Origin: Natrinema sp. CBA1119
GTDB taxonomy: Archaea > Halobacteriota > Halobacteria > Halobacteriales > Natrialbaceae
Reading direction: 5' to 3'
DNA: 64,000 nt
Assembly: GCF_002572525.1 (NCBI RefSeq)
Contig: NZ_PDBS01000001.1
Location: forward strand, 2,728,001 to 2,792,000
Positions 36,436 to 39,153 of the stretch are shown piece by piece. The first letter of the stretch is position 1; each line of letters opens with the position of its first letter. The notes under the pieces were generated by a model, which worked only from the letters and a program-made list of their open reading frames with translations, did no database searches and had not been told where the DNA came from. Both the position numbers and the translations under genes were made by a program.

Positions 36436-37992
36436 TTACGCTTCGACCCACGTGTTCGTCGCCGCGACAGACGTGAGCTGGATGTTTTCGTTCTCCTGCA
36501 TGGAGATCTGCGAGCTGCCGGCACTGCCACCGTCTTCGGCGAGTGCGACGGAGGTGTGCTGCTCGTTCAGGTTCTCCTGCGTGACGAACTGGTGCTGTTC
36601 GATCGCCGCGCTCGCTGTTTGATCGATGTCGTTCGTCTGCGTCGCGTTGGCGGCGTAATCGTACGACATGCCGGGGTTGGCGGAGCCGGAGTTACCGTCC
36701 ACGGTGACCGTCGTACTCGAGGTGCGGGCGACCTCGTCGGAGACGTAGCCCGGACTGGCGTAGACGTTAAGCGCGTCAGCGTAGCCAATCTGTGCGTTGT
36801 AGTTCTGCTGGTACGCCATCTGGATGGCGACGGCCTCGCTGCCGTTCTGTGCGATTGCCATGGCGCTGTTCTGCAGGTTGATGTTGCGCTGTTCGACGCC
36901 CTGCTCCTGGGCTACGCCGGCGGTCGCCGTCTGCTCGGCACCGTCGTCGCTGCCCTTCTTGTCGGGCTTTTTCGTCTCGGTTTCAGTCGAGAGGACATCG
37001 CTGCCGACGTCGCCCGCGGTCGCGACGTTCATCCCGACCGACGACGCCAGCAGGTTCGAGGCGTCGGCGCTGCCGAGTTGGGTGTTGAGGTTGCTCTGAT
37101 CGGTGAACTGGATCGCAGTCGCGGTGCTGCCCTCGCCGACGGCGATGGCGACGGCACCGCGCTGTTCGTTCACGTTCGCCTGTTCGACGTCCTGTTGCTG
37201 CGTGAGCAGTGAGTCGGCGCTCTGGCCGGCGCTCGGTCCGTGATCGCCGCTCTTGTCCTTCTTGTGACCGAAGTCACCGTCACCGAGGTAGACGTTCGAC
37301 GCGTTGGCGACGCCTTCCTGCAGGTTCTCGTTGCGCTGGTAGGACTGCTGGAGCGCGGTCGCATCACTATCGTTGACCGCCAGCGCGAACGCGGTGCTCT
37401 GGTTGTTGTAGTTGGCCTGTGCGACCTCCTGTGATTGCGTTACGGCGGCGAGAGCCTCCTGGGTGACCGTCTCGTCGTCACCTTTCTTGTCTTTGACTCC
37501 CCAGCCGTCGAACTGTTGGTCGCCACCGTCGCCGATGATGATGTTGACGTCACCGACGTTCTCGAACTGGGTCTCCGCGCTCTGGAGCCGATCCTCGGCG
37601 GTCGCGGACCCGCGCTGTTCGTTGTCGTTGTACTGGTTCGCTTCCTGGACGGCGGTCGCTTCACCGCCATCGATCGCGATCGACACCGCGGAGCCTTGCT
37701 CGTTGATGTTGACCTGATCGACGTCCTGATACTGGATGACCTCGGCCGCGGTGTCGGCGGAGCCGCTCGCGTGCTGGTCGACGTACTCCTCGAGCGACAT
37801 GTCGCCGAGGTCGGCACCGAAGACCAGGTAGAGCTCCTCTCCGTCCTCGAGCGCGTGTACGGTCCCGTTCTCGAGGTTGCCGTCACCGCCCGCCGTAGCC
37901 GCCGGAACGCCGGCCGCTACCATGGACAGGGCGACCATACAGGCCAGAAGGAGTGTCGTAGCTTGTGATCGTCTCGTCGTGTCGTTTGTCAT
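36436..37992 (-). CDS. Secreted Gln/Asn-ladder repeat protein (curlin-like)
   Basis: This 518-residue protein has a Sec signal (ATTLLLACMVALSMVAAGVP, cleaved near AATA at 31-34). Five copies of a two-rung unit start at about residues 87, 186, 266, 362 and 466. Each unit has QxNxNxQ, then an aliphatic strand such as SAVSIAI, AFALAV, AVAIAV, AMAIAQ, then a second QxNxNxQ, such as QVNINEQ with QYNDNEQ or QANVNEQ with QSNLNTQ. Units are separated by 30-55-residue linkers rich in Asp, Lys, Gly and Ser. The pattern recalls CsgA curlin repeats. No known enzymatic motif is present. It is divergent from the secreted gene at 38671. Confidence 0.8.
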   Translation of the reverse strand: MTNDTTRRSQATTLLLACMVALSMVAAGVPAATAGGDGNLENGTVHALEDGEELYLVFGADLGDMSLEEYVDQHASGSADTAAEVIQYQDVDQVNINEQGSAVSIAIDGGEATAVQEANQYNDNEQRGSATAEDRLQSAETQFENVGDVNIIIGDGGDQQFDGWGVKDKKGDDETVTQEALAAVTQSQEVAQANYNNQSTAFALAVNDSDATALQQSYQRNENLQEGVANASNVYLGDGDFGHKKDKSGDHGPSAGQSADSLLTQQQDVEQANVNEQRGAVAIAVGEGSTATAIQFTDQSNLNTQLGSADASNLLASSVGMNVATAGDVGSDVLSTETETKKPDKKGSDDGAEQTATAGVAQEQGVEQRNINLQNSAMAIAQNGSEAVAIQMAYQQNYNAQIGYADALNVYASPGYVSDEVARTSSTTVTVDGNSGSANPGMSYDYAANATQTNDIDQTASAAIEQHQFVTQENLNEQHTSVALAEDGGSAGSSQISMQENENIQLTSVAATNTWVEA

Positions 37993-38670
37993 TGATCGTT
38001 TGATTTGCTTCGTGAGTGTCTTTCGTTTCTGAGTCTCTACGACGCAAACCACCATTCCGTGATGACCACCTTTGTTATCGATAGGTTGGAGCTCGGTTGC
38101 GTCGAGATATAATTGGGAAGATAATACCTTACAATCAGTAATCGATGACTTCGACCGGAGAATGGTGTGCCAAAGCGGTCTCGAAGCGAGCACGGTACGG
38201 TTCCGAAGATCGATCGGGGACTAGACAGTGATTCGTACGGTCTGCACGGGCACCTCGTCCCGCTGCTGTGAACCGTTTCTCCGATTGTAGGCTGCTATTA
38301 CCGACTGGAATTTTCAGTCGAGCATTCGACTCGACCGACATTTCGGGGACGGCGATTCCGAATATCGTCACCGAAACGCTCGGAAATCGGCGATGTAGTG
38401 TCGCTGTAACAAGGACAGGGTCTACCCAAATCCGGATAAAAACGATCACACTGTGATAGGGGAAGGAAACGCGGGTCCAACGCGTGGATTCGCCGCGAAA
38501 CCGTTTGCCGGGTTCAAATGGGTGTCTGTAAACAGTAGCGACTGGGCAACGCGCCACAGCGGGAGAACCGGGAGGTGTCGGCGCTACGCGCGGCGAGCGA
38601 CAGCGCCGCCACACACAGCGCCGCCACACGTGACAGATACTTTCGTTGTGGTCCGCACGCGTGCTGCCCG
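37993..38670. promoter_or_regulatory. Long divergent intergenic region between the two secreted repeat proteins
   Basis: These 678 bases hold no gene that I support; short frames lack sense. The segment near 38100-38140 is AT-rich (taattgggaagataatacc), and agatactttcg at about 38636-38646 could be the TATA for the 38671 gene. The length suggests heavy regulation, as in curli operons, but no specific site is identified. Confidence 0.4.
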
Positions 38671-39153
38671 ATGACGAATACGGTGACCGAATCAATGAAA
38701 CGCGCAATCACACTCGCACTGACGGTAGCACTGATCGGCGGCCTCTTGTTCACAGCGGCCGCGGGAACAGCAGCCGCACAGAACGCCGACGCCGACGCCG
38801 ACGCTGACTCCGATGTCAATATTGACGATGTCGATCAGACATCGTCTGCGGAGACAAATATCGGCGTCGATCAGAACAACAATAACGAGCAGACGCAAGC
38901 CGCGTCGTCCTACAGCAGCTCAGACGAGAGCTACGCGGAGACGAATGCACAGCAGGCTCAGGACGTCGATCAGGGTAACTCGGCCAACGTCGAGGATACG
39001 ACCACGGTCTCCTCGAACGACGTTGAAGCCGACTCCGATGCCGTTGCCGACGCGGACGCCACTGACGACGACACTGACAACTCCGTTGACGGCGTCACCG
39101 GCGACCAGCTAGAGAGTATCCTTAGTGGTATCTTCGCCGAGCTCGGTCTTTAA
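38671..39153 (+). CDS. Small secreted acidic protein with curlin-like motifs
   Basis: This 160-residue protein has a Sec signal (MKRAITLALTVALIGGLLF, cleaved after AAA near residue 36). The mature part holds GVDQNNNNEQTQAAS and then NAQQAQDVDQGNSANV, which share the QDVDQ/QxNxNxQ style of the larger protein. Two Asp/Ala-rich stretches flank this core and a hydrophobic tail LESILSGIFAELGL ends it. ATG 38671 or 38695 starts it. It is divergent from the 518-residue protein and may be its minor subunit or nucleator, which is inference. Confidence 0.75.
   Translation: MTNTVTESMKRAITLALTVALIGGLLFTAAAGTAAAQNADADADADSDVNIDDVDQTSSAETNIGVDQNNNNEQTQAASSYSSSDESYAETNAQQAQDVDQGNSANVEDTTTVSSNDVEADSDAVADADATDDDTDNSVDGVTGDQLESILSGIFAELGL

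Follow-up and report, generated by a model that had tools for sequence, protein, structure and literature searches.

A divergent pair of predicted secreted Gln/Asn-rich proteins in Natrinema sp. CBA1119 as a candidate haloarchaeal surface-fibre system

The closest described systems to the gene pair analysed here are the bacterial curli and Fap fibres. The secreted curli subunits CsgA and CsgB carry regularly spaced Gln and Asn residues in beta-rungs, with repeats of about 22 residues (QxGxxN), and are encoded together in the csgBA genes of Escherichia coli; CsgG, another curli component, sits in an outer membrane, which archaea of the kind considered here do not have. The Fap functional amyloid of Pseudomonas is encoded by the fapA-F operon, and contains FapC and a second related subunit, FapB. 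The minimal curli motif was given as X6QXGX2NX10, and one archaeal protein with curli-like repeats is mentioned in the same source (PMC3521004). FapC consists of three Greek-key repeats. Its repeat units are described as stacked within the monomer and separated by long flexible linkers (PMC12822426). Among archaea, MspA/SH, the sheath protein of Methanospirillum and Methanosaeta, is an extracellular amyloid-like protein (PMC10593813, PMC12520557), and dye staining indicated amyloid-like material in biofilms of Haloferax volcanii (PMC4180959). One candidate, HVO_1403, was put forward because it is homologous to an amyloidogenic factor of Sulfolobus; it is unconfirmed, and the consulted sections of the two papers name no rung protein for the Haloferax biofilm amyloid (PMC4180959, PMC12520557). 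The pair described below may be likened to MspA/SH by description, as a candidate extracellular amyloid-like system of archaea, and differs from it in that MspA/SH builds the cell-enclosing sheath of methanogens.

The pair is located in a window of 64,000 nucleotides (positions 2,728,001 to 2,792,000 of contig NZ_PDBS01000001.1), which is the whole stretch of DNA analysed. The larger gene (36436-37992, minus strand) was recognised from its open reading frame, signal peptide call and 13 homologs, and encodes a protein of 518 residues, predicted to be secreted. The signal peptide region, about residues 1-34 (37891-37992, minus strand; profile matches, cleavage site inferred), resembles the N-termini of haloarchaeal surface glycoproteins. 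In a profile search, residues 1-85 matched two surface proteins with PGFG-hydrophobic tails at their ends; matches of this segment in other genomes were rejected as family members, being the N-termini of other surface proteins, and they probably reflect a common type of signal peptide.

Five rung units, each with two QxNxNxQ words, were delimited on the minus strand: unit 1 at residues 80-135 (37588-37755, words at 93 and 120), unit 2 at residues 176-236 (37285-37467, words at 192 and 219), unit 3 at residues 255-318 (37039-37230, words at 271 and 299) and unit 4 at residues 352-414 (36751-36939, words at 368 and 395), all from the motif and the AF2 model, and unit 5 at residues 456-518 (36439-36627, words at 472 and 499), from the motif. 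The motif positions agree with the preliminary description, which had reported a signal peptide and five units starting near residues 87, 186, 266, 362 and 466. The ten words form five pairs with partners about 27-28 residues apart, and each pair flanks strands of the AVAIAV type. Shuffling the mature sequence with its composition preserved (20,000 shuffles) gave a mean of 0.03 words and a maximum of 2, against the ten observed; the rung motif is real.

A unit is composed of two arms of about 28 residues, each with one word. The alignment of 520 distinct arms, which belong to family members and were picked by the QxNxNxQ word, gave the consensus [AV]-x-[AQ]-x-Q-x-[VATS]-x-Q-x-N-x-N-x-Q-x-G-x-A-x-A. 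The even face of the arm contains 69% Gln/Asn, 26% aliphatic or aromatic and 0% charged residues, with a mean conservation of 0.96 among 14 homologs. On the odd face, acidic residues make up 27%, and conservation is 0.67. The four linkers are 18-41 residues long, charged and variable (0.63 in the same homologs). All Gln and Asn residues of the words are invariant in 52 aligned two-unit fragments, which were selected for carrying all ten words, and they are invariant or nearly so over the 14 homologs, one of which has nine words. The aliphatic strands also keep fixed positions in the aligned fragments. This two-face pattern is what Gln/Asn ladders buried between beta-rungs should look like. The last rung forms the C-terminus of the protein (...SVAATNTWVEA), with no cap or anchor.

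The pair resembles curli in its regularly spaced Gln and Asn residues, in the predicted secretion and in the joint encoding of two putative subunits. Unlike curli, the large protein has arms of about 28 residues with QxNxNxQ and units separated by linkers, and no csgDEFG equivalent was found among the linked genes identified by homology. The Curlin_rpt family (PF07012) gave no match at E<=10 in the large protein or its 13 homologs and only sub-threshold matches, at other loci, over the whole genome of the strain, while the arm HMM ranked CsgA and CsgB of E. coli no higher than shuffled CsgA. Membership of the large protein in the curlin family, for which an HMM search had been proposed in the preliminary description, is not supported by its sequence. 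A separate open frame of 1577 residues was noticed in the same genome (C1 about 2,513,823-2,518,556; L131 4824-9557, minus strand), with many Q-x-Q repeats of about 27 residues (VxVxQxQxAAxGAAxGAL), further repeats downstream and a weak Curlin_rpt match (16 bits); judged by its repeats, this is a second Gln-rung-like protein of the strain.

In layout, the large protein resembles FapC more than CsgA. Both have a small number of long, imperfect repeats that conserve Asn/Gln and are joined by long variable linkers, as is seen here in five units, disordered linkers of 18-41 residues and a conservation of 96% for the Gln/Asn face versus 63% for the linkers. However, there is no detectable similarity to the FapC repeat (GNxGVNVAAGxGNQQxN), and the FapC chains 9nqd and 9u4u, both present in the PDB set, were matched at E<=10 neither by the large protein nor by the rung profile. 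Neither query found a relevant family among the PDB sequences, and matches of this profile to PhoQ and S-layer proteins there were rejected, since they look like chance driven by composition. The organisation also differs from that of Fap: the large protein has five two-armed units where FapC has three Greek-key repeats, the genes form a divergent pair and not an operon like fapA-F, and the host is an archaeon.

The AF2 model of the full-length large protein (14 rows) had a mean pLDDT of 45.8 and a pTM of 0.44; for the linker-rich FapC F1, a pTM of 0.4 was reported (PMC12822426). The five units were modelled as repeated long-short-long strands. In units 2-5, the cores had a pLDDT of about 65-74; values were lower in unit 1 and fell below 50 in the linkers. 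At low confidence, the model appears to stack the five units into a beta-solenoid. A two-unit fragment (52 rows) scored 41.8, below the full-length protein, though its strand pattern repeats, and on account of this low confidence it was left out of the fold searches. Foldseek gave no significant match to the AF2 model, the best being curli CsgA 8c50 of Pontibacter (E 0.38) and the remaining ones mostly solenoids. In VIA, 148-152 residues over positions 88-509 of the model aligned to the beta-helix core of SufB/SufD (Z 8.3-9.7, rmsd 2.6-2.9); for curli CsgA 8c50, the aligned length was 116 residues (Z 6.8, rmsd 8.7). A Z near 8 may reflect only a common arrangement. The stacked rungs expected at the outset appear in the model at low confidence and with a weak CsgA match.

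The second gene (38671-39153, plus strand), recognised from its signal peptide and its pairing in other loci, encodes a small Gln/Asn-rich protein of 160 residues. Both proteins have N-terminal signal peptides, as claimed earlier. Of the two words previously attributed to the small protein, one is an exact QxNxNxQ (QNNNNEQ), a number reached in 0.6% of shuffles, whereas QDVDQGNSANV is a looser match and not a full word. The true start may be Met9 (38695, MKRAITLAL...), which is used in 12 of the 14 aligned rows of the small family and would give a protein of 152 residues; with this start, the divergent gap would be 702 bp, not 678. Against the rung HMM, the 160-residue protein itself did not outscore shuffles, and it was missed by the two-unit profile of the large protein, which did match several small proteins (1e-14 at best, for L070), so that its kinship to the rungs rests on its relatives. 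Five genomes also gave matches between the mature small-family profile, without signal peptides, and large proteins (1.5e-5 to 1.3e-4). Between the small and rung profiles, hhalign aligned only 22 columns, with a probability of 45%.

A divergent small gene of this kind adjoins the large gene in 31 of the 40 non-KK loci examined, according to our own tally, in which L082 was seen partly through the small-family profile search. Paired loci have one to four tandem small genes. In a control survey of 1,167 kb, 42 of 48 small Gln/Asn-rich open reading frames with signal peptides were divergent and within 5 kb of a large gene, and most of the remaining six belong to the same family. In one genome (G132), three small Gln/Asn genes lie by larC-cdc48 (L056 3941-9016) with no large gene there; its large gene is found at L055.

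Many haloarchaeal mRNAs are leaderless, and against that background the conserved leader of about 90 nt that precedes the large gene (GATAACAAAG...CAGAAACRAAAGACNCTCACG; 37993-38083, minus strand; alignment of 9 loci) is unusual. A conserved noncoding block (38487-38563), aligned from 20 distinct loci, contains a 21-bp motif, GAAACCGTTTGCCGGGTTCAA (38497-38517, plus strand), an imperfect palindrome of the form GAAxCCG-N5-CGGxTTC identified by genome and locus comparison. With up to two mismatches allowed, this is its only copy in the 5.06-Mb genome. The core of the motif recurs in L003, L006, L008-L015 and other pair-holding loci across Natrialbaceae, and in the loci compared it stands about 480-510 bp upstream of the large-gene start. 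It is a putative shared operator or promoter element, and together with the leader it suggests regulated expression. Within the motif, GGGTTCAA looks like a tRNA B box, but there is no tRNA at this place; no RNA match was found in an Rfam search of the divergent region and the noncoding block.

The order radB - upDUF - large gene <-> small gene - larC - cdc48 is kept in many genomes, and among these neighbours identified by homology there is no dedicated export or chaperone gene. In 19 Natrialbaceae genomes lacking the large gene, upDUF was always present, and no small-family match was obtained in any of them; this zero is weakened by the insensitivity of the profile, since of the searched genomes that do have the large gene, only about a quarter gave a match to the small one. 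Stronger evidence comes from 15 loci without the large gene that were read directly and have neither a small gene nor the 21-bp motif. In L116, L121 and L123, the site is cleanly empty, with a upDUF-larC gap of 99-239 bp versus 3.1 kb in the window. Thus, the divergent pairing noted in this strain is widely conserved, both genes are absent together, and, given the joint absence and the empty sites, the pair appears to come and go together, that is, to be gained and lost as one module.

Homologs of the large protein with 53-90% identity were found in 13 other Natrialbaceae contigs, the closest, by homolog search and tree, being those of Natrinema, so that the haloarchaeal host assumed in the preliminary description is right. 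The family occurs in 60 of the 292 sampled haloarchaeal genomes, almost all of them Natrialbaceae, and no relatives were found in the sampled genomes outside Halobacteria. Pfam and NCBIfam scans revealed no family covering the large protein, which by sequence comparison is a distinct family. Searches of phages and viral contigs found no relatives and thus give no indication of a viral origin. In most homologs, the number of rung words is ten or close to it. In the tree, a KK-tailed clade at other loci is separate from the main clade, within which members bearing PGF-CTERM form two groups. Among the scanned homologs, L046, L049, L064 and L078 passed the cut-off of TIGR04126 (PGF-CTERM), L061 was below it (E 1e-4), and L051, L053 and L077 have, by eye, a PGFG/PGLG-hydrophobic C-terminus; the 518-residue protein has no PGF-CTERM by inspection of its C-terminus and no NCBIfam match. 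Plasmid-borne homologs are annotated as 'hypothetical protein' or 'PGF-CTERM sorting domain-containing protein'. The divergent clade (L055, L060, L065-L067, L072 and L073) mostly has Lys-rich C-terminal tails and lies outside the radB-larC locus, some of its relatives being on megaplasmids. One homolog, L021 (G143), contains an in-frame TGA and is possibly decaying; a second copy in the same genome, L048, is without stops.

The best reading of these data is a surface rung protein that resembles functional amyloids, is independent of curlin and Fap and has a small co-assembling partner, which makes the pair a good candidate for an archaeal surface fibre. The large protein would be exported, probably by Sec, and its ten arms of about 28 residues would each fold as strand-turn-strand, with the uncharged Gln/Asn/aliphatic ladder facing inwards. 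The ten rungs would stack into an uncapped beta-solenoid with acidic and Lys-rich linkers looping out. Since the C-terminal rung ends bare, copies of the large protein might add to one another at their ends and build an amyloid-like fibre at the cell surface, which the small protein, carrying roughly two rung-like arms, may join as a minor, capping or nucleating subunit. Polymerisation, the roles of the subunits and a function in biofilm formation or adhesion are what we infer; whether such a two-component secreted system polymerises in this way seems to us evenly poised. A more extended version, in which an independently evolved, haloarchaea-specific amyloid-like fibre of ten-rung major and small rung subunits has a shared control element, behaves as a gain/loss cassette at one site, is PGF-CTERM-anchored in some lineages and may be the source of biofilm dye staining in carriers, is put forward tentatively, as something that could well turn out otherwise.

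The main rival is a beta-solenoid coat or adhesin, monomeric or associated with the S-layer, which does not polymerise and which the small proteins would serve as accessory ligands or caps. The PGF-CTERM-anchored homologs and the S-layer-like signal peptide locate the family to the cell surface, non-amyloid solenoids give the best structural matches (SufB/SufD, Z 9.7), and the nearly constant number of words in most homologs suggests a fixed length. We nevertheless regard a monomeric solenoid as rather unlikely: neither end of the 518-residue protein is predicted to be capped, its last rung being its C-terminus, and similar rung units are encoded by some of the tandem small genes, which would be expected if the subunits co-assemble. 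The low AF2 confidence for both the full-length protein and the two-unit fragment, and the charged, variable linkers, would also fit a mostly disordered, secreted Gln/Asn-rich matrix protein that acts as biofilm glue or as a hydration polymer and whose words are sticky patches and not rungs. This is improbable in view of the strict alternation of two faces, of which the even one is uncharged and 96% conserved, the arm spacing fixed at 27-28 residues and the fixed positions of the aliphatic strands. As for a true archaeal branch of curlin or Fap acquired from bacteria, the Gln/Asn rungs, the major/minor-like pair and the weak best Foldseek match to CsgA would be in line with it; it is very hard to reconcile with PF07012 being unmatched in 14 homologs, a rung profile blind to CsgA and CsgB as well as to the FapC chains, and a family confined to Halobacteria in the sampled genomes, and we consider such an origin highly improbable.

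In haloarchaeal biofilms, amyloid-like material has been stained, and the consulted sections of the literature give no confirmed gene for it (PMC4180959; HVO_1403 unconfirmed, PMC12520557); the other archaeal amyloids treated in those of PMC12520557 are methanogen sheath proteins. A conserved, compact gene pair and strains that naturally possess or lack it make the question of haloarchaeal amyloid directly testable. If the pair does form fibres at near-saturating salt, it would represent, beside curli and Fap, another and sequence-unrelated solution to building a fibre from Gln/Asn ladders.
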